Shown piece by piece: positions 2,100 to 42,620 of a stretch of 43,362 bases of DNA. Origin of the DNA: Verrucomicrobiota bacterium. GTDB taxonomy: Bacteria; Verrucomicrobiota; Verrucomicrobiia; Verrucomicrobiales; Akkermansiaceae. Position 1 is the stretch's first letter, and each line of letters starts with the position of its first letter. The stretch lies in assembly GCA_008932935.1 (NCBI GenBank), contig WBXD01000003.1:1-43362 (forward strand), written 5' to 3'. The translations under genes were made by a program, and so were the position numbers. Below the pieces are notes generated by a model. That model made no database searches and had not been told where the DNA came from. It saw nothing but the letters and a program-made list of their open reading frames with translations.

Positions 2100-2984
2100 A
2101 TGAAACCGCTAGCCAGAAGATTGTTGACCGCAGCGCGCTCTGCATGGTTTATGCAAAGAAAGCGAGGGTTGCGCCAGCGGATCCGGCGATGCCTCGGCCT
2201 CAGCCAGGACCAGGATATTCAGGACATCCTCACCTATGTAGCGAACCATCCCGAGTTGGAACTGCCGCTTGGAATGACGCCGCCCTATGAGTGGGTCAAC
2301 GAATACTCTTCCAGTAAAGTTCTTGTAGAAAAAGAAGATAGCAGTGGCCTATTGTATGTGATCATCAATAATCATCGCGTTTATTTTCCACGCAATGCAA
2401 CACTGGAAAACGTACAGGATTCCGTCTCTATTGGGTTGATGGAGCAGGACCTGCGCTCCCCTCACCGTTATGTCGGTGATGGATTTAATGTCGATGCCGG
2501 TGACATCGGCGTGTTCATCGGTGCCTCAGACGGTCTTTTCTGCCTGAGTCTATTGGATCGACTCTCTAAAGCTTACTTGTTTGAGCCGAACGAGGACTGG
2601 CATGAGCCTTTGCGGGCTACTTTTGCGTCATGGGGTGACAAGGTGGAAATCGTGCCCTTGGCCGTTGGTTCCAGAAATGATGCCAAGCAGGTAAGCTTGG
2701 ATTATTTTTTTGCCAATCGGCCAGTTCCCCAATACATCCAAGTAGATGTGGATGGCCTCGAATCGGACATATTAAAAAGCGGGCAGCGACTGCTGAAAAA
2801 CGTCACCAAGTTACGCTTGTCACTTTGCACTTATCATAAACGGTTGGACTTCCCCCGATTTTCAGAGTGGTTAGGTAACAGAGGATTTACCATTGCACAT
2901 TCTCCCGGTTTTTATTTTCTAGGCGTTAGGAAGCCGTTCTTTCGTCGAGGAATTTTATACGCTACTAAAACTCCACATGAATAA
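2100..2984 (+). CDS. FkbM family methyltransferase (first of four)
   Basis: A 294-residue S-adenosylmethionine-dependent methyltransferase of the FkbM family, which usually O-methylates sugar hydroxyls in glycans or polyketide glycosides. The SAM-binding Rossmann motif is at about residues 138-152 (VFIGASDGLFCLSLL), followed by an acidic residue in YLFEPNEDW. The FkbM signature near residue 215 is IQVDVDGLESDILKSGQ. The first ~130 residues are an extension with a basic start, longer than in minimal FkbM proteins. It is separated by about 120 bases from the upstream transferase and is followed by an AT-rich 279-base spacer with hairpins. The methyl acceptor is not predictable, but the setting argues for a sugar of the polymer encoded here. 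Confidence 0.85.
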   Translation: MKPLARRLLTAARSAWFMQRKRGLRQRIRRCLGLSQDQDIQDILTYVANHPELELPLGMTPPYEWVNEYSSSKVLVEKEDSSGLLYVIINNHRVYFPRNATLENVQDSVSIGLMEQDLRSPHRYVGDGFNVDAGDIGVFIGASDGLFCLSLLDRLSKAYLFEPNEDWHEPLRATFASWGDKVEIVPLAVGSRNDAKQVSLDYFFANRPVPQYIQVDVDGLESDILKSGQRLLKNVTKLRLSLCTYHKRLDFPRFSEWLGNRGFTIAHSPGFYFLGVRKPFFRRGILYATKTPHE

Positions 2985-3060
2985 ACGCATAGTCGAACTG
3001 GATTACTTGAAAAATATAAAAAGTTAGCATACTGTTTTTTTATTTTAGCGTCATTAGGTA

Positions 3061-3148
3061 TAGCTTGTATAAGCTATCACATGGTGGAGTAGCCGTCAAT
3101 AATACTTGGTAAATGGCTAACCAAGTATTATCGGCAGACTAATCTGCT
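3061..3148. repeat. Cluster of three small hairpins in AT-rich spacer
   Basis: The 279-base gap between two methyltransferase genes contains three successive inverted repeats: TAGCTT/AAGCTA (3061-3076), a 12-base perfect repeat with a 9-base loop (arms 3099-3110 and 3120-3131), and GCAGA/TCTGC (about 3134-3147). None is followed by a T-run, so a simple rho-independent terminator is not supported. They could be mRNA processing or stability elements, a mobile-element remnant, or a protein-binding palindrome. Confidence 0.5.
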
Positions 3149-3263
3149 GCATGAGAAATAGTATTTATGGCAATTCGGAACGTAAGAAAACGCCGCCGAG
3201 AATGTTATTACGTCGCTATAAAAATTACTTGTAATTAGATATCACAAACCAGCAAACCGTATA

Positions 3264-4034
3264 ATGCAACAACAGACAACTCATATTCATTCACCAACGG
3301 TTCGATCTACCGGGGACGAGATGCTCACCCTGCTGCAGAAAGGGTTTGGCCATCGCTCGCCGTATGATGCGCCACTGATTCATGCTGCCGCGAATAGCAT
3401 CTGGCAGGCTGGGCGCGACGCGAGAACCATCCTGGAAGTATGCTGCGGACATGGCGATCTGCTTGCCGGGCTTGCAGCGACTTTTCCTGACGCAAGCGTC
3501 ACGGGGATGGACCAGTTTGTTGGCACAGTGAAAATTGCGGCAGAGAGAATCCAGGGGCTCGCCAATGCGCGGGTTAAGGCAGCGGACGTCATGCATTTGG
3601 ATGAGTGGGGCGACGATAGCGTGGATCTGATCGTGGGCCAGGCCACCCTGCATCACCTCACTCACAATCCTTATGCTGCAATCGACGAGTTCTTCCGCGT
3701 GCTGCGCCCTGGTGGGAAATGCATATTCACCTTTGAGCCATTGAGCCACAATCATTTCGTCAACGCCGTCCGTTCCTACAGAAATGCCAAAGGCCTGTTG
3801 CTGGATGAAAGCAACTTGTATATTAACACACTAGAGCGGATTGCCTTAAAATTCACTTCTACCGAGGTGCAATGTTTCAATTTGTCATGGAGTTACCTTC
3901 TTAAAGCGTTTCCCCGTTCTGCAGTTTTACTCCATCTGGGCTCGGCATTGCGCAAAATGGATGAGGTGCGATTCAAACTCTGGCCACAATCGCTGCGAAA
4001 AGCCGCGAACTTCAACGTGGTTTTTACTAAATAG
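3264..4034 (+). CDS. Class I SAM-dependent methyltransferase (Methyltransf_11 type)
   Basis: A 256-residue class I methyltransferase. Motif I at residues 56-71 reads ILEVCCGHGDLLAGLA, with the acidic partner in GMDQF. The post-motif region is VDLIVGQATLHHL and motif III is VLRPGG near residue 146, the usual layout of the Methyltransf_11/25 group. Small-molecule or sugar methylation is typical. The C-terminal half (FEPLSHNHFVNAVRS, DESNLYINTLERI, EVQCFN) is clearly related to the protein encoded at 18167-18916, so the locus carries two members of one subfamily. The ATG at 3264 has no obvious Shine-Dalgarno sequence. The substrate is unknown; the context suggests a modified sugar or lipid-linked glycan. 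Confidence 0.85.
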   Translation: MQQQTTHIHSPTVRSTGDEMLTLLQKGFGHRSPYDAPLIHAAANSIWQAGRDARTILEVCCGHGDLLAGLAATFPDASVTGMDQFVGTVKIAAERIQGLANARVKAADVMHLDEWGDDSVDLIVGQATLHHLTHNPYAAIDEFFRVLRPGGKCIFTFEPLSHNHFVNAVRSYRNAKGLLLDESNLYINTLERIALKFTSTEVQCFNLSWSYLLKAFPRSAVLLHLGSALRKMDEVRFKLWPQSLRKAANFNVVFTK

Positions 4035-4117
4035 CAAAAAAAGCGAGGGTTTCGTGGCGTTTTTCCTCGATCGTAATTAATTATTGGTTCTTTTAGCCAA
4101 TATATCCACTTGTTCAT

Positions 4118-5056
4118 ATGCATCAAGATTTATCAGAATTAAAGCTCGCGTCATTCGTATATCGGAAAGTAATTGAAAGTAAGGGTATTGCCAGGAAATG
4201 TTGGGGATTGGTACGATCATTGCTGCTTAAACTTCTGAATGACCCATGCTGTTGCATGGATATACACGGAAGATCAATGCTGCTTCCACTCTCTCATCTA
4301 TTACCTCTGTATCTCGACAGCAAACCATTCTACGACCGCCTCCCGCATCAGATATCAGAGTACCTCATGAAGTCTGATGGATATGTGACGGCTATCGATA
4401 TCGGTGCTAATATTGGCGATACGGTAGCAGCATTCATGATTTCCGACGCCAATCGATTTCTCGCAATTGAACCCAATGCTCATTTCAGACAATATCTAGA
4501 TAAAAACCATGAGAAATCCAGGAATGTTGTTTCAATTGCGGTGCTTTGCTCCTCAATTTCTGCAGGCACATGTGTTGTTGTAAAAGAGCAATTTGGGACC
4601 GCTTGCATCGAAACGTCTACCGATGGAGCAGTAATGAAGCAATACACTTTGGACGAAATTATTACTACCTTACCGGAGTTTAACCAGGCTAACGTTCTAA
4701 AAATTGACACGGACGGTTATGACCTGAAAATTCTCCTAGGGGCAAGATCATTCATCGAACGAAATCAACCCGCTGTCCTTTTTGAGTGTGATGCATTCTC
4801 CAATGACCAGTATCTCGAAGAATTTTTCAGCTGCATCTCATTGTTCCGCGAATGTGGATATAGAAGCTTTTTGCTCTACGACAATTGCGGATATTTTATG
4901 GGAGAATATGTCCTTTCCGATCCAGGCTTTGAACAGTTTTTTAGCAACTTGCTCAAATGGCAAATGAATACCAGAACCATTTATTTTGATATCTTGTTTT
5001 TTCCACCGGAGAAAATGGAGATATTCCGCCTCGAGAATTTGGCGCCCCGCCAATGA
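4118..5056 (+). CDS. FkbM family methyltransferase (second of four)
   Basis: A 312-residue FkbM methyltransferase. The SAM-binding motif is at about residues 92-106 (AIDIGANIGDTVAAF), the ribose-binding acidic position is in LAIEPNAHF, and the FkbM signature near residue 193 is VLKIDTDGYDLKILLG. The ~90-residue N-terminal extension has several cysteines and no clear domain. This is one of the most AT-rich genes in the window (23 G/C in the 60 bases 4501-4560), which contrasts with the genes after 8 kb and suggests a different origin. It probably methylates a sugar hydroxyl of the glycan; it differs enough from the other FkbM copies that a distinct position or sugar is likely. Confidence 0.85.
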   Translation: MHQDLSELKLASFVYRKVIESKGIARKCWGLVRSLLLKLLNDPCCCMDIHGRSMLLPLSHLLPLYLDSKPFYDRLPHQISEYLMKSDGYVTAIDIGANIGDTVAAFMISDANRFLAIEPNAHFRQYLDKNHEKSRNVVSIAVLCSSISAGTCVVVKEQFGTACIETSTDGAVMKQYTLDEIITTLPEFNQANVLKIDTDGYDLKILLGARSFIERNQPAVLFECDAFSNDQYLEEFFSCISLFRECGYRSFLLYDNCGYFMGEYVLSDPGFEQFFSNLLKWQMNTRTIYFDILFFPPEKMEIFRLENLAPRQ

Positions 5057-5164
5057 TTGAGAAGAAAATGACTCCCTTGAACTAAGTCCTCACCCCTGCC
5101 AGTCGTTTATCGTCCCATGTTATCCACGCCTCCATGCTCTAAACAATAGATATATATCACGCCG

Positions 5165-6007
5165 ATGCTTAATACAATTGCAGATTTTTTCGTATGGCTT
5201 TACAAGATGAATCGCAAGACGCTTCAGTTGCGCGGGGGGTATCGCTTGTTGAAGTTAGCCGGACGCGTTTGTCCCAAGCTGCGGTATTATCCGGTTTCGT
5301 TCGGGGCATCGGGTATCCATTATGCGGATGTGCGTGATCCGGACACTTTTTGGCTGCTCAATGCCTTTGTCGGTGATGTTCATCCCAGTCTCCGGCATCT
5401 GGCCCGCTTGCTGGCGTCACGCAGCAAGCGGGGAGCGATTGTCTGGGACATTGGCGGCAGCATGGGATTGTTCACCATTGAGATGTTGAATGCCGCGCCA
5501 CATGTCGGAGCCATTCATGTCTTTGAGCCAAACCCGGTGCCAATGCGGGTGGCGCAAGACTTGTTGAGTCCAATAAATAACGTCACGATGCATTCGGTTG
5601 CCCTCGGGGATCAGGCGGGAACGGCCACCCTATTTGATGGAGACGAGGGAAGCGGAACTGGCGGATCATCATTGAGTCCGGCCAAAGCGCGCAACCGCGG
5701 CATTGAAGTCCGGGTAGAAACAGGGGATGCGCTGGTGAAAAACACAGACCTGCCGGCACCAGATATTGTTAAAATCGACGTTGAAGGGTTCGAGCCGAAT
5801 GTATTGCTAGGCATGCGCGAGATCATTTCGCAAAAAATGCCGGTCATCGCCCTGGAAATCCTCTTTCTAACTAAGGAGCAAATCCTTGAAATAATTCCGC
5901 AAGGATATCGAATCCGCTACATCCGGGAATCCGACGGGCAACTATGTGAGGACTACGAAGTCGCCCGTCTCGGAGGCTGCATGGATGCATTGCTGGAACC
6001 AGCTTGA
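5165..6007 (+). CDS. FkbM family methyltransferase (third of four)
   Basis: A 280-residue FkbM family methyltransferase. The Rossmann motif near residue 93 is VWDIGGSMGLFTIEML, followed by HVFEPNPVPM, which carries the acidic residue for the SAM ribose. The family signature near residue 201 is IVKIDVEGFEPNVLLG, and the C-terminal strand is MPVIALEILF. The length is ordinary for the family. The ATG at 5165 follows a 108-base spacer with no terminator-like structure, and the next FkbM gene starts 25 bases after the stop, so these two are likely co-transcribed. The predicted activity is O-methylation of a glycan sugar in the cytoplasm; the exact acceptor is unknown. Confidence 0.87.
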   Translation: MLNTIADFFVWLYKMNRKTLQLRGGYRLLKLAGRVCPKLRYYPVSFGASGIHYADVRDPDTFWLLNAFVGDVHPSLRHLARLLASRSKRGAIVWDIGGSMGLFTIEMLNAAPHVGAIHVFEPNPVPMRVAQDLLSPINNVTMHSVALGDQAGTATLFDGDEGSGTGGSSLSPAKARNRGIEVRVETGDALVKNTDLPAPDIVKIDVEGFEPNVLLGMREIISQKMPVIALEILFLTKEQILEIIPQGYRIRYIRESDGQLCEDYEVARLGGCMDALLEPA

Positions 6008-6032
6008 AACTAAAATAGAAATCTAGTCACGC

Positions 6033-6794
6033 ATGAAAACATTCAGTTCAGTTCGAGGTCATACAATTTTGAATCAACCGCTGACGGATAAAGCTCCGGT
6101 TGTGATCGATCTTGGAGCCAATCACGGCGCCTTCTCGCGTGAAATACAAAAGCAATTCGGTGGGGAATTTTTTCTGGTAGAAGCCAATCCAGTGCTAGCA
6201 GAAGCCTTAGGCAAAGAGCAATGGCAGGTGTGGAATTGCGCGGTTTCCGACACTGATGGAGAAATCGCTTTTCATGTCGCAGAGAATGATGAATCAAGCA
6301 GCGTCCTACAAACGGATGAGGTGATAAGTGGTATTCATAGCGCGACCACGGTTAGCGTATCATCTAGAAGATTGGCGGGGTTGCTCGATGAAATCAGCAG
6401 ACCGACGATTGATCTCTTGAAGATTGACATTGAAGGCATGGAAGGGCCTGTGTTGATGGGACTGCCTCCAAGAATCCTCAAAAACATCGCCCAGATAACG
6501 GTCGAGTTTCATTGTGACGAGCGGTTTGGCTACCAATTAAGAGACGACGTTGGCAGGACCATCGCCTATTTGCGGGGTCATGGATTTTCTTACGTCAACT
6601 TTTCAGGAACCACTTTGATGGATGTGCTGTTCATCAATCGGGATCTGCTGAAGATACCGGCTTACAAGGCCAGATTGTGGGAAATATTGGGAACGCGGCC
6701 GCTTTGGTTGAAAAATTTGAAATGTGTCATCCCATTGCCGCTCAGAGACCTCTTGAATTTCTTGGTTGACCAGCTTGTCGGGCGTGGCAAGTAA
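6033..6794 (+). CDS. FkbM family methyltransferase (fourth of four)
   Basis: A 253-residue FkbM methyltransferase and the shortest of the four; it starts almost directly with the catalytic domain. The SAM motif is at about residue 24 (VIDLGANHGAFSREI), with the acidic partner in FFLVEANPVLAEAL. The family signature near residue 129 is LLKIDIEGMEGPVLMG. The tail after about residue 200 (PAYKARLWEILGTRPLWL) is amphipathic and basic and might contact the membrane. The gene lies 25 bases downstream of the third copy. The four copies differ in N-terminal extension and sequence, so they look like independent family members and not a recent tandem duplication. Confidence 0.86.
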   Translation: MKTFSSVRGHTILNQPLTDKAPVVIDLGANHGAFSREIQKQFGGEFFLVEANPVLAEALGKEQWQVWNCAVSDTDGEIAFHVAENDESSSVLQTDEVISGIHSATTVSVSSRRLAGLLDEISRPTIDLLKIDIEGMEGPVLMGLPPRILKNIAQITVEFHCDERFGYQLRDDVGRTIAYLRGHGFSYVNFSGTTLMDVLFINRDLLKIPAYKARLWEILGTRPLWLKNLKCVIPLPLRDLLNFLVDQLVGRGK

Positions 6795-6890
6795 GATAGA
6801 TGTGCTAGGCGCGAGGCGAGGGCGGCTGTGTTGGTAAATGTACATTGGATATCCACACTGCAATCTTACGATTAACCAGGATATAAGAAA

Positions 6891-7784
6891 ATGCAAAAGA
6901 ACCTCATCTTAACCACCGCTAGCGGCTTAACTGCCAGTCAATTAAGACCATTCGTATTCTCATTTCAGCAGTTCCAGAAAGAAGCTGACCTCGTTATTTT
7001 CACCAACCGCTTGAATGCCGAAACTCGAAGATACTTATCTGAGAGCGCACAGCTGATTGATTTCAAGCATCTAAGCATTCGGATGAGGCATCCTCAGTGT
7101 TTTCTTTGGCCTCTGTGGAAACGCGGTTTTCCCCTCTTGAAAACAGAGCATTCGCGCCGACAACTGGGACGCTTCGTCTTTAACCTGGCGAGCCTGCGTT
7201 TTCTGTTGTACCTGGAATACCTTGAAAACCTAACGGAAAAGCCAGCTTGGGTTTTTCTGACTGATTCGCGTGATGCGATTTTCCAGGATGACCTCTTTGC
7301 AAGAATAGAAGGACCTGGATTGTATTGTTTTGGAGAAGGGAAACAACGCACTATTGCAGGCTGTTACTCCAACTCGGCGATGCTCAAAGATTGTGCCGGT
7401 GAACAGGCGCTCAAGGAATATGGCCAACGTGAGCCATCCTGCGCAGGTACCATTTTGGGTGATTACGAAAGCATGCTCAATTATCTTCAAACCACCGTAC
7501 GCATAACCATGTCCGTTGAGCGGATGAAAATGGTATCCAGCGTGGACCAAGGAGTGCATAATTATATCACGCATAAGGAGCTGATTCCGAATACAAATTT
7601 CGTGGATAATGATGCTGGCCCAATTGGTACCATGGGCAGCGTAGCATACAATCATATCAGAGAATCTCCCGAGCACCTGATCTTACAGAGCGATGGCAGA
7701 CCTTACGCATTCCTCCACCAGCAGGATCGCCACAAGCAGATTGTAGAGAATCACCCCGTTTACAAACAAATCAGGAACCTCTAA
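6891..7784 (+). CDS. Putative GT-A-like glycosyltransferase, unclassified
   Basis: A 297-residue protein that I cannot place in a named family with certainty. It opens with a beta-strand typical of nucleotide-diphospho-sugar transferases (NLILTTASGL), followed by a second strand (EADLVIFTNRLNAETRRYL). It carries the acidic motif VFLTDSRDAIFQDDLF at about residues 120-135, in the place where GT-A enzymes have their metal-binding DxD. A late SVDQGVHNYI resembles the acidic-and-Q segment seen in several GT-A families. An AGGA element lies 9 bases before the ATG. Flanked by methyltransferases and a GT61 enzyme, it is best read as a glycosyltransferase of unknown donor. Another nucleotide-sugar-dependent enzyme remains possible. 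Confidence 0.6.
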   Translation: MQKNLILTTASGLTASQLRPFVFSFQQFQKEADLVIFTNRLNAETRRYLSESAQLIDFKHLSIRMRHPQCFLWPLWKRGFPLLKTEHSRRQLGRFVFNLASLRFLLYLEYLENLTEKPAWVFLTDSRDAIFQDDLFARIEGPGLYCFGEGKQRTIAGCYSNSAMLKDCAGEQALKEYGQREPSCAGTILGDYESMLNYLQTTVRITMSVERMKMVSSVDQGVHNYITHKELIPNTNFVDNDAGPIGTMGSVAYNHIRESPEHLILQSDGRPYAFLHQQDRHKQIVENHPVYKQIRNL

Positions 7785-7798
7785 TTCCTGCTTTTTTC

Positions 7799-8920
7799 AT
7801 GGAAATGCCTACATTAATGGGTCTATACAGCGAGAGTAAGAAGATTGCACTACAGGGTGTACGGATGATGGAGCGCATATGCGGGCGCTTGCCGGGTTTC
7901 GGCCGCTTTCGTCCGCTACGTGGCAGCTTCTCAGCACTTGCACTGCTGGACGAGCGGAAGGTGCCCGGCGAGGTGCTGTTGCGCGCCCAAGGATCCGGCC
8001 CTTGTCCGCGCGGCTCGATGACTGAACTGGCCGGGATGCGCCAGAACGACCACCAACCATGGCCGGTGTTCTGGGTGCGCTCAGACGACGCCCGACTGGC
8101 CGGGAGAATGCTGCATTGGCGCGACCGTGGTGGCCGCTTGTGCAGTGAGGGGGTATTTTATCAGCACGAACGCGTGCGGCTAAGCGAGGACAAGATGTTT
8201 GCCCAGATTCTGGTTCCCAAGCCGAGGTTCCTGCCGGGAGCCTGGACTTCCATTGCATCAAACTGGGGCAATGGATTGAATTATTACCATTGGATGCTCG
8301 ATAGCCTAACCCGCTTGGAGCTGCGCGAGTCACTGCCCGAACCCACCCGCATCCTGGTATCGAGCGCGGCGCGTGGGTTCATGAGCGAGACCCTCGAAAT
8401 GCTCGGGCTCGCAGGCTATGTCGAATGCACAAGCGCCGCCTGTGTTCAACCCGAACGCTTTTATTTTTGTGCGCCCACGGCCATGACCGGCGCGTGGAAT
8501 CCCTTAGGATACGATTGGTTGCGAAAGCGCTTTGCTGCGTTCTGCCTCCCGACCAACTGCGGGCCGCCGATTTTTTTGACGCGGCGGGGTTGTGCGCGGG
8601 TGCCCGTGAATATTACCGAAGTTGAAGAGATGTTCACCCGACATGGTTTTGCCATCGTTGATTGTGGAGTGATCTCCGTGAAAGAGCAGATGAGCCTAGC
8701 CAGCAATGCACCCGCGATTGCCGGCCTGCACGGCGCCGCCATGACCAACCTGCTGTGGGCGCAGCCCGAAGTGCCGGTTCTGGAGATTTTCGAGCCTGGC
8801 TACCTGAATGCCTGCTACGAGCAAATCGCTTTTCATGGAAAATTATTATATCAACATCAATTCCTAGCGGCCTCTAGGGATTTGTATTCAATAGAATCAT
8901 GGTGCCGAAAAATATGCTGA
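7799..8920 (+). CDS. GT61 family glycosyltransferase (DUF563)
   Basis: A 373-residue protein with the hallmarks of family GT61/DUF563. The central NYYHWMLDSLTRLELR segment (about residues 160-175) and ARGFMSETLEMLGL are followed by the C-terminal region PIFLTRRGCARVPVN, NEVEEMF-like helix and AGLHGAAMTNLLWAQP, which in this family forms the donor-binding site. Members transfer xylose, GlcNAc or other sugars; bacterial ones occur in capsule and EPS loci. The start is ATG 7799, with in-frame ATGs at 7805 and 7817 as alternatives and no clear Shine-Dalgarno. It lies 14 bases after the preceding gene. GC content rises from about here onward. Confidence 0.88.
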   Translation: MEMPTLMGLYSESKKIALQGVRMMERICGRLPGFGRFRPLRGSFSALALLDERKVPGEVLLRAQGSGPCPRGSMTELAGMRQNDHQPWPVFWVRSDDARLAGRMLHWRDRGGRLCSEGVFYQHERVRLSEDKMFAQILVPKPRFLPGAWTSIASNWGNGLNYYHWMLDSLTRLELRESLPEPTRILVSSAARGFMSETLEMLGLAGYVECTSAACVQPERFYFCAPTAMTGAWNPLGYDWLRKRFAAFCLPTNCGPPIFLTRRGCARVPVNITEVEEMFTRHGFAIVDCGVISVKEQMSLASNAPAIAGLHGAAMTNLLWAQPEVPVLEIFEPGYLNACYEQIAFHGKLLYQHQFLAASRDLYSIESWCRKIC

Positions 8921-9069
8921 CCCTCACTAGAAGGGTAAGCATTCGAAGTGCTCCTATATTGTGGGAGCTGATACATTTCTGTCCGTAGTTGGACCATCCA
9001 TGCCTTCACACTCATTATGAGTTGGCAATTCAAGTCGAACTCCGCACTCATTGGGTGCTCTAGCCAATC

Positions 9070-9765
9070 ATGAATACTCAAATCAATTTGCAATCACCGG
9101 GTAAGCTTGCCGGCAAGGCCGCGCCAATGTTGAGTTCGGTGGCGATTTACGCGGCCACGACCTTATTTGGGACTCTGATTTTATTACTTGACGAGTCGCT
9201 TCTAGACGTAGTGATCACGCCGATGCTGGGATTATGGTGGTTGATGGGGGTGGCATTTTTCCGGCGGCCGCGGGAAGTGGCCATCATCGGGCTGATACTT
9301 CTTGTTTGTGTGCTGAGCAGTTTGCTGCGCGAATCCATTGGCACGATCGTTGTGCGAAGTGCCTCATTTATTATCAGCTCAATACTGGCGGTGTTGTTAG
9401 CTCGGCAGAAATCGCAAGCCGCCGATCGCTACATGCAGATTTCCAGAATCATCAAATCTGTTCCGGCCAACGTGGTGGCCGCGGATGAACAGGGGACGAT
9501 CATCGCAGCGAGCGACATGGTCGTTGAGCTGATCGGAGAAGCCTACCAGCCAGTTTGCGGGCATGTGTTTACGGACGTGTTCATGCACCATATTCAGCCG
9601 GCCGCCGTACTTAGCATTTACCGGGAATGGTTCCAGCGCAGCGGCAGGTTTGACTGTGACCTTGATTTAGTAGGCCACGATAACAAGCCATTGAAGGCCA
9701 CGGCGGAATGTTGCGGCTCCGGAGACTCGCGCATTCTGGTGGTCATGTTGCAAGCTCATCAATAG
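9070..9765 (+). CDS. Membrane protein with C-terminal PAS-like domain
   Basis: A 231-residue protein with about four hydrophobic segments (roughly residues 20-40, 46-62, 70-88 and 92-108), followed by a cytoplasmic region that resembles a PAS sensory fold: RIIKSVPANVVAADEQGTII is the classical opening of such domains, and ASDMVVELIGEAY plus a YREWFQRSGRFDCDLDLV strand continue it. There is no histidine kinase, GGDEF, EAL or other output domain after the PAS region, so it ends as a bare sensor or an interaction module. It stands alone between glycosyltransferase genes with 149- and 131-base spacers. It could sense envelope state and regulate polymer assembly through a partner, but that is inference. 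Confidence 0.6.
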   Translation: MNTQINLQSPGKLAGKAAPMLSSVAIYAATTLFGTLILLLDESLLDVVITPMLGLWWLMGVAFFRRPREVAIIGLILLVCVLSSLLRESIGTIVVRSASFIISSILAVLLARQKSQAADRYMQISRIIKSVPANVVAADEQGTIIAASDMVVELIGEAYQPVCGHVFTDVFMHHIQPAAVLSIYREWFQRSGRFDCDLDLVGHDNKPLKATAECCGSGDSRILVVMLQAHQ

Positions 9766-9896
9766 GTCTAACCGTGCGAGGTCCCTCGCTGCCTTGGGAA
9801 ATCCAAAGATTTTGTCGTTAGGTAAAATTTCTTGTCTTGTGTTTTGTAGTCTTGCGTCGTGGGTCTGAGGTGAAGCCTCGCCAGTTACCTCTGCGT

Positions 9897-13220: not shown

Positions 13221-13282
13221 AGGGTTTCCAAAAAATCGATTCACCGCCAAGGCGCAATGGCCGCCAAGGGAGAGGAAGAAAA

Positions 13283-13321
13283 GGTGTTTCGGTAGCCGCT
13301 GCGCGGCTCGGTGTTTCGGTA
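13283..13321 (+). repeat. Direct repeats flanking a hairpin
   Basis: In the 188-base spacer after the triple transferase, GGTGTTTCGGTA occurs at 13283-13294 and 13310-13321. Between the copies lies a perfect hairpin AGCCGC-TGC-GCGGCT (13294-13308). Just upstream (13245-13270) is a CCGCCAAGG-type repeated phrase. This looks like a small intergenic repeat element; no T-run makes it a terminator. Confidence 0.5.
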
Positions 13322-13408
13322 TTTCAGTAAGTGAAGAGTCAAAGCTCAGTGCGTAGTGACTGGTCCGTTCTCTCGTGCCGAAGCACCGCTCCCCCCCCAC
13401 ATTACCCC

Positions 13409-14197
13409 ATGGCCAGCATTCCTACATGGCTTCGAACGTTCGGGATCGACCCGAAGCGCGGACTCTCTGCTTGCCAAGGCTTGCGCCGCTATCTGTGTGC
13501 ACGGCGGGCATTCCGCGCCCAGCAGGACGACAATTTCCGCTGGGGTAACTCGCTGCCCATCCTCGATGAATGGCAGGCGGCTAGTGGATCGCTGGGTGCC
13601 TATTTCTATCAGGATCAGAGAGTGGCACAGTGGATCCATCAGGCAAACCCGCGCCGCCACGTCGATGTCGGGTCGCGCTTGGATGGGTTCATCGGGCATC
13701 TATCGGTGTTCCGGCACGTGGAGGTGCTCGACCTGCGTCCGCCTCCTTCGGCTGTTAGCAATGTGACGTTCCATCAGCTCGATCTGATGCAGGCGCTGCC
13801 GACCGAGTGGATTGAAGCTACCGATTCGCTCTCCTGCCTGCATACTATTGAGCATTTCGGCCTTGGGCGCTACGGCGATGTGATCGATGTGGACGGGCAC
13901 CACAAGGGCTTGGCCCAACTCAAGCGGATGGTGGCACCGGGGGGCAGGTTGTATCTATCTACCCCGATCGGGCCTCAGCGGGTGGAGTTCAACGCGCACC
14001 GGGTGTTTGCGGCGGCGACGCTAGCCGGTTGGTTTAGCGATGGCTGGGAGATCGAGCGCTTCGCGGTCATCGACGATGCGTGCCGCCTGCATGACCCCGT
14101 CGCGTGGCGGGGGCCTGAGTTGGAAACGCATTTCGGCTGTCGCCTCGGGGTGGGCATTGTCATCGCGCGCAAGGCGGGGACGACGGATGTTGGATGA
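13409..14197 (+). CDS. DUF268 family protein, probable SAM-dependent methyltransferase
   Basis: A 262-residue protein of the DUF268 type, a branch of the class I methyltransferase fold. Recognisable parts are PRRHVDVGSRLDGFIGHLS (degenerate motif I), VEVLDLRPP (acidic partner), LSCLHTIEHFGLGRYGD (the most characteristic segment), VAPGGRLYLSTPIG and EFNAHRVF. Members occur in polysaccharide gene clusters and are thought to act on sugars or lipid carriers, but the reaction is unproven. The start is ATG 13409; a GTG at 13331 would add 26 residues that look like translated spacer. The next gene follows after 79 bases. Confidence 0.8.
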   Translation: MASIPTWLRTFGIDPKRGLSACQGLRRYLCARRAFRAQQDDNFRWGNSLPILDEWQAASGSLGAYFYQDQRVAQWIHQANPRRHVDVGSRLDGFIGHLSVFRHVEVLDLRPPPSAVSNVTFHQLDLMQALPTEWIEATDSLSCLHTIEHFGLGRYGDVIDVDGHHKGLAQLKRMVAPGGRLYLSTPIGPQRVEFNAHRVFAAATLAGWFSDGWEIERFAVIDDACRLHDPVAWRGPELETHFGCRLGVGIVIARKAGTTDVG

Positions 14198-14276
14198 TTG
14201 ATGATGGAAATCGTAGAATCCACACTCCCTCTCCTCTGCTCAATGCCAGCCCAAATTTAAAATTCAAAATCATCCA

Positions 14277-15137
14277 GTGATTCGCATTGTGCTGTTAGGC
14301 CGGACCGGCAACAACCTGTTTCAGTATGCGCTGGGGCGGGTGCTTGCGGAGAAACACGGAGTGCCGCTGATGCTCGACGGGTCATGGTTCAATGCAGAAG
14401 GCTGGGCGGAAGTTTCGCATTTTCTGCGTCTGCCACTGCGGGCGCAGGTGGTCAGGCGCTGTTCGCTCGGGGCGCGGGCCTTGCTCAAATTCACCGGCAA
14501 GCATTACTGGGAATTCCGGGGAGTGCCTATGTTGTGGGAATCCACCGACGATCAATCATATAGTCCCACCTTTCTGAATGCCCCTGCGGACTGCATGGTG
14601 TTCGGTTATTTTCAATCGCCGCGTTATTTTGAATCGATCACGCCTGTGCTGCGGGCTGAGTTGAACGCCCTCATTGGTGGAGCTGTGCAACTCCCGGAGA
14701 ACCTGCGAACCAGGCTTGCTTCCTCCAACTCAGTTGCAGTACATGTTCGCAGAAAAGATTATTTGAATCTGCCAATTTTCCAGGTTTGTGACCAGGCATA
14801 CTACCAGCAATCCATGCGCCAGTTGCGCGAGCGCCTTCCCGCCGCGCGATTTTTTATATTCTCGGATGACCCGGCATGGTGCCGTGCCGAGTTCCGTGAT
14901 GCAGACCAGGAGGTTGTAGATTCGGGCATCGCGGCGGCGAATCCACTCCACGAACTGTACCTGATGAGCCTGGCCTCTCACCACATTATAGCTAATAGCA
15001 GTTATTCGTGGTGGGCCGCCTGGTTGGGTGAGAAGCCGGACCAACGCGTGATGATGCCACAGCGGTGGTATGCACACGGCATCACGGCGCCAATTGAACA
15101 AAAACGCATGCCTCATTGGGAAATCCTGAGTTTGTAA
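14277..15137 (+). CDS. GT11 family glycosyltransferase, alpha-1,2-fucosyltransferase-like
   Basis: A 286-residue GT11 enzyme, the family of GDP-L-fucose-dependent alpha-1,2-fucosyltransferases. The N-terminal motif is IVLLGRTGNNLFQYALG, a variant of the usual G-G-L-G-N-Q-x-F-Q-Y. Motif I, which binds GDP-fucose, is VAVHVRRKDYLN, close to the standard H-x-R-R-x-D. Later blocks are FFIFSDDPAWC, LYLMSLASHHIIANSSYSWW and a closing VMMPQRWYA. The start is GTG 14277; the stop overlaps the next ATG (TAATG), so translation is probably coupled. No GDP-fucose synthesis genes (gmd, fcl) lie in the window, so the donor must be made elsewhere. A donor other than fucose is possible but less likely. Confidence 0.9.
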   Translation: MIRIVLLGRTGNNLFQYALGRVLAEKHGVPLMLDGSWFNAEGWAEVSHFLRLPLRAQVVRRCSLGARALLKFTGKHYWEFRGVPMLWESTDDQSYSPTFLNAPADCMVFGYFQSPRYFESITPVLRAELNALIGGAVQLPENLRTRLASSNSVAVHVRRKDYLNLPIFQVCDQAYYQQSMRQLRERLPAARFFIFSDDPAWCRAEFRDADQEVVDSGIAAANPLHELYLMSLASHHIIANSSYSWWAAWLGEKPDQRVMMPQRWYAHGITAPIEQKRMPHWEILSL

Positions 15138-15877
15138 TGCCAATTTATCCTAACAACTGGGCGGTGGTAGTTCCGCTTGCTAATGAAGAGGCCGGCTTGT
15201 CGGCGTTTGCCGCAGCGCTGCAATCCGTGATGGATGCCACGGCTGGCGGCATTGCCTATTTGATCGTCGACCGGGTGTCTAAGGACCGGACGTTCCAACG
15301 CTGTGAGGAGCTGAGCCGCGAAGATCCGCGGTTCATCACCAAGTGGCTACCACAAAACCGCAATGTAGTCGATGCCTATATCAACGGCTTCAGGGCAGCT
15401 CTCGATGACGGGCATGAAATCGTAATCGAGATGGACGGCGGTCTGTCGCATGATCCGCGGGCGATTCCAGGGTTCCTGCGGGCACTTAATGAAGGCAACG
15501 ATTGTGCCTTTGGCAGCCGCTACATGAATGGCGGCTCGATGGTGGATTCGCCGTTTACACGGCGGCTGCTGAGTAAGGGCGGGACATTGTTGGCCCAATT
15601 GTTGTTAGGTTCGAGATTGGCAGACATGACTTCGGGCTTTCAAGGGTTCCGGCGCACCGTGCTACTCAATCTAGTCGAGTACCCGCTGCGCTCAAAGGCA
15701 CATTTTTACCAGACCGAACTGCGTTACCTGTTACGCCACCAAAAATTGATAGAGGTGCCGATCCATTACCGTGCGCCTTCGCCACGGGTGTCCAAGGGGG
15801 CGATTCGCAATTCGGTGGCGGTGTTGATTCACTATTTTCTGCTGCGTGTTCAAGGCCGGAGCCCATCAATCCAATGA
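15137..15877 (+). CDS. GT2 glycosyltransferase, dolichol-phosphate mannosyltransferase-like
   Basis: A 246-residue GT2 enzyme resembling the DPM1/polyprenyl-phosphate sugar transferase group, which makes polyprenyl-linked monosaccharides for use by GT-C enzymes outside the membrane. It has the opening strand WAVVVPLANEEAG, the segment EIVIEMDGGLSHDPRAIP (the family's MDADLSHDP) and ADMTSGFQGFRR. Two catalytic-region motifs deviate: DRVSKDRT replaces the common DDGSTDGT, and DGG replaces DAD. Bacterial relatives with such changes exist, so activity is not excluded. There is no C-terminal membrane domain. The ATG at 15137 overlaps the preceding stop, and its own stop overlaps the next start. 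Pairing with the downstream GT-C-like protein would make biochemical sense. Confidence 0.82.
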   Translation: MPIYPNNWAVVVPLANEEAGLSAFAAALQSVMDATAGGIAYLIVDRVSKDRTFQRCEELSREDPRFITKWLPQNRNVVDAYINGFRAALDDGHEIVIEMDGGLSHDPRAIPGFLRALNEGNDCAFGSRYMNGGSMVDSPFTRRLLSKGGTLLAQLLLGSRLADMTSGFQGFRRTVLLNLVEYPLRSKAHFYQTELRYLLRHQKLIEVPIHYRAPSPRVSKGAIRNSVAVLIHYFLLRVQGRSPSIQ

Positions 15878-16896
15878 ATCATACAGCCCCATCTACCGCA
15901 CTTGTAGTCACCTCGATTCACGCGCCGAATTGCGCACTTCGGGAGTTGGCAGCGGGCTGTCTGGAATTCGGCTGGGACTTTGTGGTTGCAGGAGATGCCA
16001 AGAGCCCGGCGGATTTCGCGCTGGCTGGATGCCGGTTCCTCTCGCTAGACGCCCAGCGCGACAGCGGATTTGCCCTAGGCCGGATTTGCCCGGAGCGCTC
16101 CTATACCCGCAAGAACCTCGGCTATTTGTCGGCTATCCAAGCTGGTGCGAAGGTGATTGTGGAGACGGACGACGATAATCATCCGACCCAAGCATTCTGG
16201 ATGAACCGGCAGAAACGGGTGCCATGCCGGGTGGTAGAGAGCGACGGCTGGGTCAACGCCTATCAGTATTTTAGCAGTGGGTTTATCTATCCGCGTGGAC
16301 TGCCGTTATGCCACGCGCGGGACGTCGGCCCGGCGGCAGCAAGTGTTGTAACCATGGAAAGCTTAGTGCAGCAAGGGCTCGCAGACAGCGATCCGGATGT
16401 GGACGCGATTTACCGGATGTTGTTTCCTTTGCCGTTTCAATTTGATGCAGATGCCGCTCCGGTGTTGCTCAGGGGAGGGGCTTGGTGTCCGTGCAACAGC
16501 CAGAATACCACATTTTTTGCAGAAGTGTTTCCTCTAATGTATCTGCCAGCGCGCTGCAGTTTCCGGATGACGGATATTTGGCGTGGTTTTGTCGCGCAAC
16601 GGGTGTTGCAGGCAACCGGGCAGGGGCTGTTGTTTCACGGAGCGACGGTATGGCAGGAGCGCAACGTTCACGACTTGCAGAGGGACTTCATGGATGAGAT
16701 TCCGGGTTATGCGAACAATGCGAAGATACGCGAGGAGCTGCTCGGTCTTTCCATCAGCTCCGCCGAGCCGCTGCGGCTGATGATGGAGCGTTGCTATGAA
16801 GTGCTGATGCACCATGGCTGGGTGGGCCGGGATGAAGAGCCCCTGCTGCAGGCATGGTTCGAGGATTTGCAAGCCATGGAGGTGAAATGGACATGA
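15874..16896 (+). CDS. STELLO/DUF288-type glycosyltransferase
   Basis: A 340-residue protein that matches the STELLO (DUF288) family, best known from plant Golgi proteins linked to cellulose synthase assembly but also present in bacteria. Diagnostic stretches are ALVVTSIHAPN at the N terminus, YTRKNLGYLSAIQAGAKVI with VETDDDNHPTQAFW at about residues 85-110 (the acidic metal/nucleotide site), and CPCNSQNTTFF near residue 205. The fold is predicted GT-A. No membrane segment is seen, so it probably acts in the cytoplasm. The start codon overlaps the upstream stop (ATGA), and its stop overlaps the next start in the same way, so it is translationally coupled in the middle of an operon. Substrate is unknown. 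Confidence 0.8.
   Translation: MNHTAPSTALVVTSIHAPNCALRELAAGCLEFGWDFVVAGDAKSPADFALAGCRFLSLDAQRDSGFALGRICPERSYTRKNLGYLSAIQAGAKVIVETDDDNHPTQAFWMNRQKRVPCRVVESDGWVNAYQYFSSGFIYPRGLPLCHARDVGPAAASVVTMESLVQQGLADSDPDVDAIYRMLFPLPFQFDADAAPVLLRGGAWCPCNSQNTTFFAEVFPLMYLPARCSFRMTDIWRGFVAQRVLQATGQGLLFHGATVWQERNVHDLQRDFMDEIPGYANNAKIREELLGLSISSAEPLRLMMERCYEVLMHHGWVGRDEEPLLQAWFEDLQAMEVKWT
16878..16884 (+). promoter_or_regulatory. Shine-Dalgarno GGAGGTG deciding the start at 16893
   Basis: GGAGGTG at 16878-16884 lies 8 bases before ATG 16893 but only 2 bases before the other in-frame ATG at 16887. The spacing favours 16893, whose first bases also overlap the upstream stop as ATGA. It is one of the few strong ribosome binding sites in the window. 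Confidence 0.7.
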
Positions 16897-18122
16897 GTGA
16901 TTTTAAGTTGCCTGATTCTGTTGTAACACGCCGGATGGTTTGGCCAAGCTGGGATTTTCTCGTGCTGCTGCTGTTGCTGGCGTTTCCATCAACTGGGTTT
17001 GTGCAGAAATATGCTGGCCTCGCTGGGGTGGCAGGCTATGTGGTAGGGGTGGCGATTGTCCTGCTAACGATACGGCACTTTGCGGCCTGCTTGGCACCTT
17101 TTTTGCGCCGCCGTTTCCGTCTGCTCCGCGTGTTGGCGCTGGCGGGCTTGGCGGTCGTTTTTGCCATTGTTTATCCAATTGAGAACCGCGGTGGACTGGG
17201 CATGAGCAGCGACCGCGAAGACGGGCTAAATCTGGCCGTGACCCGCATGTTCGAAGGCAAGACACCCTACTACGAACCTAGCAAGCACGCCGGGCCGCTG
17301 TCGGTTCTACCAGGAGGAATCATCTTGGCAGCACCCTTTGTTGCTTTGGGAAACAGCGCCTATCAGAACCTGTTTTGGTTGGCGGCTTTTCTGCTAGGAA
17401 CATGTTTTCTGTTTAAGGATAGGGCGCTCGCGCTGGTGCTGCTGACGGTGCCGCTGGGAGTGTCGCCGGCGGCGCTGTATGAGTTTATTTCAGGTGGCGA
17501 CATGCTAGCCAACGGGATCTATGTAGCTATGTTTTTTCTGTTGGCCCTTGGCTTATGGACCACCCCGCAGCGGCTTGGTATGGCCAAGTGGCTAGCGTGT
17601 GCGGTGTTGGGAGTGGGGTTGGCGTCGCGGCCGAATTTTCTGTTGCTCACGCCGCTGTTCGGTGCGGTACTGTGGCGCTCGGTGGGCGTGCGGCCAGCCA
17701 TTGCCGCAGTCGCAGTGGTGGTGGGGGTGGCGGGCGCAATCACGCTGCCGTTTTATCTGCATGATCCGGCTGGTTTCACGCCGTTGCTTGCCAGGGAGAA
17801 GCTGGCGGTGATCGATGGGCTGATGCCATGGGCCAGCAAGGCGATGATCGGGACGACGGCGTTGCTGGGGATTTTGGGCGCGTGGGTGTTGTTGCGAGCC
17901 AATGTAGGAGATATGATGCGGATGTTTTTCCGCTGGTGTACACTGGTGACAATATGGCCGATGATCTGTGCCGTAGGGCTCTCCAGTTTCGGTAACGGGC
18001 ACCTTGATTTTGGTTTCATGCGTGACCGCTTCGGATTGATGTACGTGTTTTTTGCGTTGCTGGGATGGGGAGGGCAAGGTCTGCGGGAAACGCCATTATG
18101 CAATGCCACAGCAGTGGAGTAG
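16893..18122 (+). CDS. Polytopic membrane protein, GT-C/GT87-like mannosyltransferase fold
   Basis: A 409-residue integral membrane protein with roughly ten hydrophobic segments. After the second there is an extracytoplasmic-type loop with acidic residues (GLGMSSDREDGLNLAV) followed by FEGKTPYY, the pattern of GT-C enzymes (GT87/DUF2029) whose first loop carries the catalytic Asp. Downstream features are RPNFLLLTPLFG and FYLHDPAGFTPLL, also common in that group. Such proteins take sugars from polyprenyl-phosphate donors, which fits the DPM1-like gene two positions upstream. The start at ATG 16893 is supported by the GGAGGTG sequence and an ATGA overlap. Polymerase or transporter functions cannot be excluded from sequence alone. 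Confidence 0.72.
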   Translation: MSDFKLPDSVVTRRMVWPSWDFLVLLLLLAFPSTGFVQKYAGLAGVAGYVVGVAIVLLTIRHFAACLAPFLRRRFRLLRVLALAGLAVVFAIVYPIENRGGLGMSSDREDGLNLAVTRMFEGKTPYYEPSKHAGPLSVLPGGIILAAPFVALGNSAYQNLFWLAAFLLGTCFLFKDRALALVLLTVPLGVSPAALYEFISGGDMLANGIYVAMFFLLALGLWTTPQRLGMAKWLACAVLGVGLASRPNFLLLTPLFGAVLWRSVGVRPAIAAVAVVVGVAGAITLPFYLHDPAGFTPLLAREKLAVIDGLMPWASKAMIGTTALLGILGAWVLLRANVGDMMRMFFRWCTLVTIWPMICAVGLSSFGNGHLDFGFMRDRFGLMYVFFALLGWGGQGLRETPLCNATAVE

Positions 18123-18166
18123 CCCGCCTGAGGGGGGAGACGAATGTACCGAGAAAGACACCAGAC

Positions 18167-18916
18167 ATGGCACTCGAATTATATCATCCAAAGCGTAAGG
18201 CGGATACACGAGCTGAGGCGATGTTGCCAGCTGTGGGTGGATTTCCGCCGTCTGACCGGCAGTTGTTTGTAGCTGGCTACGGCGAGCTGTGTCGGATAGA
18301 CCTGAGCGGCAGGCGGGTGCTGGAGATTTGCGGCGGCTTTGGTAAGTTGGCGGGATTGCTGGCGGAGACGTTTCCGGCGGCGGAGGTCATTGGGTTGGAT
18401 CTGTATCAGGCGTCCGGGCCGGAGATTGATGCCCGGCTCAAACGGCTTTCCGGCCTGTCGTATGTTGCTGGGGATGCGTTTGACTTATCGAGGTTTGCGG
18501 ACGGGTCAATCGACCTGGTGTGGGGGCAAGCGGCGCTGCATCACTTGGCGCATGATACGGAAAAACTGAGCCGGGAGGTGCTGCGGGTACTCAGGCCTGG
18601 CGGGCGGCTGGTCTTTATTTTCGAGCCGTTGGGCCATAATTGGTTGGTGGCAGCGATTCGCGCGGTGCGCATGGCCCGGCACGAAGTGGGTGACGAGAGC
18701 AACTTGTATTTCTCGCAATTTGAGCGGATGCGCGACTGCGGTTTTTCGAGATGCGAGGTGCAGGTGTTCAACTTTCTCGGGTATCCGCTCAAGGCGCTAT
18801 CTGATCACTGCAGGTTTATTTCCACGGCGGTGCAACGCTTGGATCGCTGGTTGTTGCGCCATTGTCCGAGGCTATTGCGCTATGGGGCGAACTGCAATGT
18901 GATCTTTACCCAATAG
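18167..18916 (+). CDS. Class I SAM-dependent methyltransferase, paralogue of the 3264 gene
   Basis: A 249-residue methyltransferase. Motif I is VLEICGGFGKLAGLLAE, the acidic partner is GLDLYQ, then IDLVWGQAALHHLAHD and VLRPGGRLVFIFEPLGHN. It shares its whole architecture with the protein at 3264-4034, including DESNLYFSQFERM, EVQVFNFLG and a final strand GANCNVIFTQ, so the two form one subfamily. Its base composition is GC-rich like its neighbours, unlike the 3264 copy. ATG 18167 is preferred because homology starts there; a possible upstream start at 18065 would overlap the previous gene and add spacer-like sequence. A small hairpin (TAGCGG/CCGCTA, 18914-18930) includes its stop codon. Confidence 0.86.
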   Translation: MALELYHPKRKADTRAEAMLPAVGGFPPSDRQLFVAGYGELCRIDLSGRRVLEICGGFGKLAGLLAETFPAAEVIGLDLYQASGPEIDARLKRLSGLSYVAGDAFDLSRFADGSIDLVWGQAALHHLAHDTEKLSREVLRVLRPGGRLVFIFEPLGHNWLVAAIRAVRMARHEVGDESNLYFSQFERMRDCGFSRCEVQVFNFLGYPLKALSDHCRFISTAVQRLDRWLLRHCPRLLRYGANCNVIFTQ

Positions 18917-19020
18917 CGGTGAGGCCGCTATTCGTAATTCGCTAACCTATCATATGAAGAACTCACGCGAAGACTTGGCTGACTTTTTACACCAGAGTAT
19001 TCCGCGGGACGCCGAACGCG

Positions 19021-19037
19021 GCCGGCAGGATGCCGGC
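19021..19037. repeat. GCCGGC hairpin in spacer
   Basis: GCCGGC at 19021-19026 and 19032-19037 form a 6-base stem with an AGGAT loop, within a GC-rich spacer just before the next start codon. It resembles short palindromic repeats scattered between genes in many GC-rich bacteria. No further copy was recognised in this window. Confidence 0.4.
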
Positions 19038-19051
19038 GCTCCCCGCCGCCT

Positions 19052-19978
19052 ATGACATCAAGCATGAAAATTGCGGTCGTGTTTGCCACAATGAACCGAG
19101 CTGCGACTGCGGCGGCCTGCGTGCGGGCGTTGGCGGCGCAGACGCGGCCACCGCAGTGGGTGGTGGTAGCCGATAATGTGTCGGAGGATGGAACGGCGGA
19201 ATTGCTAGATAATCTGGCAGATTTGCCGTTCGGATTGCTCGTGCACCGGATGCGGGATAACCGCGGCAATGCCGGCGGGGTGGAGGAGGCGATGGAATTG
19301 GCGTTTGGCCTAGGGGCCGATGCGGTGTGGATTTTGGATGATGATTCATGGCCGCGGTCCGGGGCACTGGCGGCATTGTTGGATCAGCCGTGGGATGGGC
19401 AGGTGGTGCGCCATGCGTTGCAGATCGACCCGCGCACTGGGCGTTTCACCTGGCCCTTGCAGGTAGACGACGGGCAAGGCGGCTGGCGATTGATAGATTC
19501 GCTGGCTCAGATGCCAACGGGAGAGTGCGTATGGAGCCGGATCATCTGGACTGGGGCCTTGGTGCCGCGCGAGGTGCGAGAGAAGGTTGGGCCGGTCAAT
19601 GGTGAGCTATTCATTCGTGGCGAGGACGAGGAATATCCATGGCGCATCGAGCAGAGTGGCTTTCGCCAACAAGCCGTGCGCGGCGCGCTGCTGGATCATC
19701 CGGGGCCAGCCAAGCTTATTCACTGGCGGATATTGGGCAAGAGTTTGTTTTTCGAGGCGGGCTTGGCGGACTGGAAACTCTATTATAAAGTGCGTAATAT
19801 GGTTTGGCTAAAACGCAAGCAAGCGGGAGATTTGCGGGCAATCAGCATGGCAGCCTCTTATGCGTTAGCGGCCACAATCATTGATGGAGCCACGCGATTG
19901 CCGTTGCTGTGGCGTGCGATCGGCGATGGCTGGAAGGGGCGGCTGGGTAAAATGTCTGACGAGGTAGATCAAAAATAA
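19052..19978 (+). CDS. GT2 family glycosyltransferase
   Basis: A 308-residue GT2 enzyme with a GT-A fold. The opening strand is KIAVVFATMNRAATAAACV, followed by VVVADNVSEDGTAEL (nucleotide-binding acidic loop) and AVWILDDDSWP near residue 95, the metal-binding DxD. Further on, LFIRGEDEEYPWRIEQSGF is the acceptor-side motif with the putative catalytic ED, as seen in rhamnosyl- and galactofuranosyl-transferase relatives. The tail after residue 240 is partly hydrophobic (AISMAASYALAATIIDGA) and may touch the membrane. Start could be ATG 19052 or 19064. It is 7 bases upstream of the next gene, so both are likely in one transcript. Donor sugar cannot be fixed from sequence. Confidence 0.87.
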   Translation: MTSSMKIAVVFATMNRAATAAACVRALAAQTRPPQWVVVADNVSEDGTAELLDNLADLPFGLLVHRMRDNRGNAGGVEEAMELAFGLGADAVWILDDDSWPRSGALAALLDQPWDGQVVRHALQIDPRTGRFTWPLQVDDGQGGWRLIDSLAQMPTGECVWSRIIWTGALVPREVREKVGPVNGELFIRGEDEEYPWRIEQSGFRQQAVRGALLDHPGPAKLIHWRILGKSLFFEAGLADWKLYYKVRNMVWLKRKQAGDLRAISMAASYALAATIIDGATRLPLLWRAIGDGWKGRLGKMSDEVDQK

Positions 19979-19985
19979 CAGAAAT

Positions 19986-20774
19986 ATGCTTTCACAAATC
20001 AAATCGCTAATCCGACAATTGTTTTACCGCTCTGGAGTATTTCGGGGCATCGTGGGGTGCTGTTCGGTGATGATCGGGCGGACCAGTGGGCTTGGCATAT
20101 CGCACCTGTTGTCGTATCGGGAAGATGACGCGATCGGGCCGTTACAGAGGGATGAGGCGATGGCCATGTTTGGCATCATTCGCACATTGCGGCCCAAGGT
20201 CGTGGTGGAATTCGGGTTTTTCCATGGTCACAGCGCATACAATTTTTTACAGGCTTTGCCGGAGGACGGGCGGCTTTACAGTTATGATATAGATGAGGAT
20301 TCCATCAGGCGGGCGGAGCGAGAATTCAGTTTCGAGCGACGCTTCACATTCGTTGGCAAGTCACAAACGGCGTTTGAGGCATGCGATGTGGGTGGGGAGC
20401 CGATTGATTTTGTATTCTTTGATGCCGCCCATGAGCTGGAACTCAACATCGAGACGTTCACCCGCATGGTGGCCCATCTGGCACCGGAGGCAATGATCGC
20501 CATCCATGACACCGGTTTGTGGCAGCGGAGGCACTTTACGCCGATTCACGCCACCTTCACCCGCGAACATGCGGGCGAGTGGGTTAGCGACGAGTTGTAT
20601 GCGCATCAACCTGGTGAGCGGGAGTTTGTCGATTGGATCGTTGCAGGGCAGCACGGGTTTGCTGCCATCCACCTGCATTCCACTCGCACCTTGCGCCACG
20701 GGTTTTCATTGCTGCAACGGCAGCGTACCCTCGTCGCGCCTGTGCCAGCCGTGCAGGCCGGGTTGCGGGCCTGA
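19986..20774 (+). CDS. Class I SAM-dependent methyltransferase (Methyltransf_24 type)
   Basis: A 262-residue methyltransferase. Motif I is VVVEFGFFHGHSAYNFLQAL (about residues 71-90), the acidic motif II is YSYDIDEDSIRRAE, and the metal- or substrate-side strand is IDFVFFDAAHELELN, followed by MIAIHDTG. The HDTG and FFDAAH pair is typical of the Methyltransf_24 group, whose members often methylate sugars or act in natural-product pathways. The N-terminal 30 residues are hydrophobic/basic. It starts 7 bases after the preceding transferase. This is the eighth methyltransferase of the glycan locus. The substrate is unknown. Confidence 0.82.
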   Translation: MLSQIKSLIRQLFYRSGVFRGIVGCCSVMIGRTSGLGISHLLSYREDDAIGPLQRDEAMAMFGIIRTLRPKVVVEFGFFHGHSAYNFLQALPEDGRLYSYDIDEDSIRRAEREFSFERRFTFVGKSQTAFEACDVGGEPIDFVFFDAAHELELNIETFTRMVAHLAPEAMIAIHDTGLWQRRHFTPIHATFTREHAGEWVSDELYAHQPGEREFVDWIVAGQHGFAAIHLHSTRTLRHGFSLLQRQRTLVAPVPAVQAGLRA

Positions 20775-20894
20775 TCCACTGGCAGCTGAGAATGGGTGCC
20801 ATTGTTTTTTGTCAGACATCCAGGCTTGCACAATCCTGATTTATAGCAATTCTCAATGTTAGCAAGGGCCCCCGGTCCGTCATTAGACTCTTGT

Positions 20895-26265: not shown

Positions 26266-26310
26266 GGTGGCAGGCGGCAGGGAGAGAGAGAAATGGGGTT
26301 TTTCAAGCAA

Positions 26311-30118: not shown

Positions 30119-30318
30119 TGTGTATGGTTAGATGAGCAGCGATGCGCGGTGCTCTGTAATTAGGGCCGGCAAGCCACTGATTCACAGGGTTGAGCGTTTG
30201 TTTATTTTGCGCAACAATCTGTGCATATAGCGAACATCTGATACGGCCGCTGTTGCTGCGGCGTACGGTCATGTGCTACCTGTTGTTGCTAGCACCAGAC
30301 TTCATCCCCGAACTTCTT

Positions 30319-35600: not shown

Positions 35601-35622
35601 AAACCAAATACCAGATTAACAA

Positions 35623-37524: not shown

Positions 37525-37629
37525 ATATTCCCTTAGCTAACAATTCTTATGCATCCACATGATTCCGTTGGTGATCCGGCACACGTTTCCGCAACGGAGG
37601 GCGGCTATTCTCGCAATCCGTGCGGCCCC

Positions 37630-42507: not shown

Positions 42508-42620
42508 GGATAATTGGATGAATGGGGACATGGTTCGGGGGGCTGTAAGCAAGCGCCGCTGCCTATACGTAACATTTTAAGGCGTGATTTCACTCATTCA
42601 TTGATCGGTGTGGAAAACTT

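Follow-up and report, generated by a model that had tools for sequence, protein, structure and literature searches.

An exosortase/PEP-CTERM system tied to exopolysaccharide has been noted in Akkermansia muciniphila (PMC3048395). In flagellin glycosylation islands, the genes for FkbM and other methyltransferases vary between strains (PMC4875605, PMC5109656). For the PGL-tb of M. tuberculosis, it was proven that several methyltransferases (Rv2954c, Rv2955c, and Rv2956) act successively on one fucose (PMC3594219). Chain-end methyl capping by WbdD belongs to the ABC-transporter O-antigens (PMC3482155).

The locus studied here lies in the window, which is the whole stretch of 43,362 nucleotides that was analyzed. 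The window is contig C3, read on the + strand, of a genome of 2.24 Mb in 178 contigs that is 71% complete. The host is placed by sequence within Verrucomicrobiota, because the nearest named relatives of the initiating glycosyltransferase are Akkermansiaceae MAGs, followed more remotely by Luteolibacter, Prosthecobacter, and Haloferula. FkbM-carrying glycan islands have already been described, and this locus is a new methyltransferase-rich example. It resembles the flagellin islands in that FkbM and other SAM methyltransferases stand among glycosyltransferases and their presence is variable between related strains; however, an exopolysaccharide is the most likely target in this case, and four FkbM genes lie side by side. 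The likeness to the PGL-tb locus is one of mechanism: multiple methyltransferase genes of one locus serve successive sugar positions there, which is the mechanism proposed here, while the acceptor of PGL-tb is a glycolipid. The locus probably encodes a Wzx/Wzy-type, exosortase-associated exopolysaccharide whose sugars are O-methylated by class I and FkbM enzymes, and its left arm would be an acquired decoration module.

Eight methyltransferases had been called among the glycosyltransferase genes between 2100 and 20774. Their families are borne out by Pfam and NCBIfam, and the sequences clearly mark seven of the genes as SAM methyltransferases, with the eighth (DUF268) being a probable one. The FkbM genes were scored against PF05050 (cut-off 22.7 bits) and TIGR01444 (cut-off 37.7). 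FkbM2 (4118-5056, +; 57.7 and 57.8 bits), FkbM3 (5165-6007, +; 48.2 and 90.6 bits), and FkbM4 (6033-6794, +; 66.7 and 82.1 bits) exceed both cut-offs, and in the motif alignment all three carry FkbM motif I (DxGAxxG) and the K-D-x-[ED]-G motif. A PDB sequence search with FkbM4 gave no match. FkbM1 (2100-2984, +) is a weak family member with 25.4 bits for PF05050 and 34.3 for TIGR01444, the latter under the cut-off. It keeps the second motif, and its motif I reads VFIGASDG with the acidic residue replaced. FkbM1 is probably a methyltransferase by descent, because its predicted structure, confident in the core only, matches PDB class I methyltransferases. A profile search of the 71% complete genome found no FkbM gene outside the locus, and all four are located here. 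Recent tandem duplication was considered and rejected as their origin. The four proteins share just 23-33% identity over partial lengths and sit on separate long tree branches with weak tree support.

The two Methyltransf_11/25-type class I proteins, MT11a (3264-4034, +) and MT11b (18065-18916, +), were assigned by Pfam. They share 38.7% identity over 225 aa (E 6e-47), and by this alignment they are taken as true paralogues. The Methyltransf_24 protein (19986-20774, +; PF13578 50.7 bits) is similar to class I O-methyltransferases in the PDB. The DUF268 protein (13331-14197, +; PF03269 51.3 bits) is a probable methyltransferase, as hinted by its motif-I-like HVDVGS and its PGGRLYLSTP stretch. 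When it was compared with the Methyltransf_11 pair by hhalign, the probability was 6% with shallow alignments.

From base 1 to 24540, every assigned gene lies on the + strand. The methyltransferases are located inside a polysaccharide locus, as had been proposed, and the gene positions bear this out. Glycosyltransferases do accompany them, while the expected figure of about ten genes came to 6-8 genes with about 8-10 domains in 2100-20774. The assigned ones are GT61 (7799-8920; PF04577 67.8 bits), a GT4-GT2-GT4 fusion (9837-13220; by domain search, with parts 67-76% identical to relatives), GT11 of the fucosyltransferase type (14277-15137; PF01531 91.9 bits), GT2 (15116-15877; PF00535 63.1 bits), a STELLO-like protein (15874-16896; PF03385 43.6 bits), and a second GT2 (19052-19978; by Pfam and relatives). 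Two more candidates have no family. One is a membrane protein (16854-18122, +) that has no Pfam or NCBIfam match and is conserved in relatives. The other is an orphan protein (6891-7784, +) without a Pfam match; it is possibly a glycosyltransferase, judged by its position and a DSRD motif. Its structure model was too poor to use (mean pLDDT 36), and of the 387 genomes sampled across the phylum, only four others gave a match, each distant at 27-31% identity. The fused glycosyltransferase has 1127 aa, and the versions at the same place in relatives are shorter, about 770-830 aa. The STELLO-like family is named after plant proteins, and the bacterial member here stands in the conserved core of several relatives.

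The assembly genes follow the last methyltransferase. The enzyme at 20856-22301 (+) is identified as the initiating EPS polyprenyl glycosylphosphotransferase (PF02397 206 bits; TIGR03025 344.8 bits, cut-off 295.6). It is followed by a Wzy- or O-antigen-ligase-like protein (22318-24540, +; PF04932 43.9 bits, cut-off 31.7), a match in which the Wzy and ligase roles are not told apart. Next, on the - strand, are the EpsI-type (DUF3485) protein (24545-25723; PF11984 39.3 bits) and the exosortase (25270-26310; PF09721 160 bits, TIGR02602 141 bits), with a gap of about 4.5 kb between the last methyltransferase and the exosortase. The EpsI ORF as listed runs into the exosortase gene, so its true start is probably further in. 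As in the EpsH/EpsI type of exosortase/PEP-CTERM exopolysaccharide loci, the exosortase, EpsI-type, glycosylphosphotransferase, and polymerase/ligase-like genes are adjacent, and PEP-CTERM proteins occur in the genome, with two matches above the TIGR02595 cut-off. The locus differs from them in that its scores fall under the XrtA-specific cut-offs, and in its five extra left-arm methyltransferases.

Also encoded in the genome are Gmd, a nucleotide sugar dehydrogenase, a WecG-type transferase, and a dTDP-glucose 4,6-dehydratase, together with a Wzc-like kinase and an EpsE-like export protein. These sugar-nucleotide and export genes, as annotated from sequence, fit a Wzx/Wzy-type exopolysaccharide that contains deoxyhexoses. 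No Wzx flippase gene was found within the window, which is truncated on the left by the end of the contig. The genome has one weak flippase-type match (31.8 bits), and a flippase-type protein is encoded inside the syntenic locus of the relative G276. A gene group on contig C26 (L159:1459-7266), which also belongs to this genome, encodes a Wzc-like kinase, an EpsE-like export protein, a beta-barrel-like protein, and a PEP-CTERM protein, and stands beside a dTDP-glucose dehydratase gene. The group probably supplies the export half of this exopolysaccharide system.

The assembly genes bear directly on the term "methyl-capped" in the original prediction. If it is read as chain termination, one or more of the methyltransferases would methylate the non-reducing end and halt polymer growth, like WbdD in E. 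coli O8/O9a. Such capping occurs in nature, the methyltransferases are indeed located in a glycan locus, and WbdD likewise transfers methyl groups onto a bacterial polysaccharide. However, WbdD is a kinase-methyltransferase fusion of the ABC-transporter pathway, whereas the assembly genes here are of the Wzx/Wzy and EPS type. The Wzt_C domain (PF14524) had no match in the 71% complete genome, and a cap needs far fewer than eight enzymes. Chain-end capping is very unlikely for this locus, and the term lacks support in this sense. Methylation of sugars within a Wzx/Wzy-type exopolysaccharide is the reading followed below.

Each window protein was matched first to 138 fetched loci and afterwards to loci stitched together from relatives. 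A syntenic core was identified in the order of DUF268, GT11, GT2, STELLO-like, membrane protein, MT11b, GT2, and Methyltransf_24. It continues with the glycosylphosphotransferase, the Wzy-like protein, and EpsI/exosortase, and then with prs and rplY. Among the nearest Akkermansiaceae (L044, L045, L046, L048, L085, L092, and G006), the core proteins are about 60-90% identical to those of the window. The DUF268 protein is 71-78% identical in four relatives, and the MT11b orthologues are 68-76% identical in five genomes of the same genus. Core membership varies, with some relatives having no copy of some members; Methyltransf_24 is part of the core in some of them. The remoter relatives retain the glycosylphosphotransferase, the Wzy-like protein, the exosortase, and usually prs. 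By this synteny, DUF268, MT11b, and Methyltransf_24 are assigned to a conserved Akkermansiaceae exopolysaccharide locus.

The left arm (2100-8920), with the four FkbM genes, MT11a, the orphan, and GT61, has no orthologue in the loci of the relatives examined. The best matches of FkbM1-4 are about 20-32% identical over partial lengths, and MT11a is nearest to the MT11b orthologues (38-46%). Over the first 8 kb, the G+C content is 0.47-0.49; it steps to 0.54-0.58 near 8-9 kb, and the core has 0.54-0.60. The left arm looks acquired and strain-variable by horizontal transfer, because its 47-49% G+C stands against about 60% in the genome, where eight other stretches were 0.585-0.625. The eight methyltransferases had been proposed to act as one defining combination. 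This does not hold, with three being conserved core members and five lying in the low-G+C arm. One coherent eight-gene set was rejected because the core and the left arm are unlike in conservation and base composition.

The same G+C step, and the absence of the left-arm orthologues from every relative examined, would also be expected if the metagenome contig were chimeric and its low-G+C left end came from another organism. However, the step is gradual, the gene order is sensible across it, and G006 also shows a drop in G+C, from about 0.61 in the flank of its glycan locus to 0.52-0.56 within it. Of the two readings, horizontal acquisition is the more likely, and the chance of a chimeric contig is put as very small. 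No contig that joins the left end of the window was found in the genome. At the border of the left arm and the core, the ORF at 9070-9765 encodes a membrane protein that is PAS-like by eye and has no Pfam or NCBIfam match.

The methyltransferases of the relatives are not scattered away from the glycan genes; four to six are kept in the same syntenic locus. By Pfam, the locus of G276 has two FkbM, DUF268, MT11b, and Methyltransf_24, and that of G277 has two FkbM, DUF268, and MT11b. The locus of G009 has two FkbM, three Methyltransf_25-type, and Methyltransf_24. Contig C146 of G006, with its left side cut, has three Methyltransf_11-type and DUF268; no end overlap was found that would make it a single locus with contig C383 of the same genome. 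An orthologous FkbM, 72-75% identical, adjoins MT11b in G276 and G277, and the same orthologue takes the MT11b slot in L085 (4824-5597). A 57-59% relative of it occurs in L060, and the genome of the window has none at the slot beside MT11b. This slot comparison indicates, at the sequence level, that methyltransferases are gained and lost at fixed slots of the locus among relatives.

A profile survey of 40 genomes (39 relatives and the host's own) gave 92 FkbM hits, and 50 of the 92 have another FkbM within 20 kb. FkbM was present in 132 of the 240 genomes of a wider phylum sample. Five FkbM genes were found in 10 kb in G027, and four in 15 kb in G006. These two clusters (G027:C25 and G006:C383) are like that of the window in having 3-5 FkbM genes in 10-20 kb with glycosyltransferase matches nearby. 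They differ in that they are not orthologous to the four of the window, which lie closer. The four in about 4.2 kb are the tightest foursome seen among the 40 genomes. A uniquely dense FkbM cluster was rejected, given the clusters of 3-5 in the same order and the 50 hits with a neighbor. By these counts, FkbM clustering appears common in the order, and the locus is not different in kind.

Not every FkbM enzyme methylates a sugar, and the namesake of the family acts on a macrolide. Several genes of the FkbM arm might accordingly act on small molecules or lipids instead of the polymer, or might be decaying passengers of an acquired island. The low G+C, the lack of orthologues in relatives, and the changed motif I of FkbM1 are consistent with this. 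However, all the ORFs are intact and co-directional with the glycosyltransferases, FkbM2-4 have retained their motifs, and loci of this kind in the relatives also carry FkbM genes. This explanation is judged unlikely, although it keeps some weight. Methylation of the polymer's sugars remains preferred.

For that polymer, the following assembly order is proposed. The glycosylphosphotransferase at 20856 would initiate the repeat unit on a polyprenyl carrier, and the glycosyltransferases would lengthen it, with GT11 probably using GDP-fucose. The class I and FkbM methyltransferases would O-methylate sugar hydroxyls, each probably with its own sugar and position. We infer that methyl transfer takes place in the cytoplasm, with sugar nucleotides or lipid-linked repeat units as the acceptors. 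The repeat unit would then be flipped and polymerized by the Wzy-like protein, and the polymer would be exported via the Wzc/Wza-type proteins, whose genes lie at another site in the genome. The 2100-8920 arm, with its four FkbM, Methyltransf_11, and GT61, would serve as a horizontally acquired, strain-variable decoration module. The sugars as methyl acceptors, the order of assembly, and the horizontal transfer are the inferred parts of this model. The methylated sugars probably include deoxyhexoses, and the best reading is O-methylation at several positions in a pattern that varies among species. A bolder version is that the FkbM array and the extra Methyltransf_11 form an acquired multi-site cassette. 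The outer deoxyhexoses would become fully O-methylated, giving a hydrophobic coat resistant to enzymes and phages, and species would swap the left arm. This version is speculative and distinctly unlikely.

If the preferred model is right, the exosortase-linked exopolysaccharide locus of Akkermansiaceae pairs a stable core with an exchangeable arm, in which methyltransferases are a main variable. O-methylated sugars would then be predicted in such polymers, including those of cultured relatives such as Luteolibacter and Haloferula, which have some of the core genes. Otherwise, the locus is an ordinary instance of surface-glycan diversification.

Two further observations were made by eye in the right part of the window. 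A series of large secreted-enzyme-like ORFs occupies 30190-42552, with one being glycoside-hydrolase-like and two being sialate O-acetylesterase-like. At the right end of the window, the ORF at 42662-43360 is like a REP-associated (Y1) transposase.
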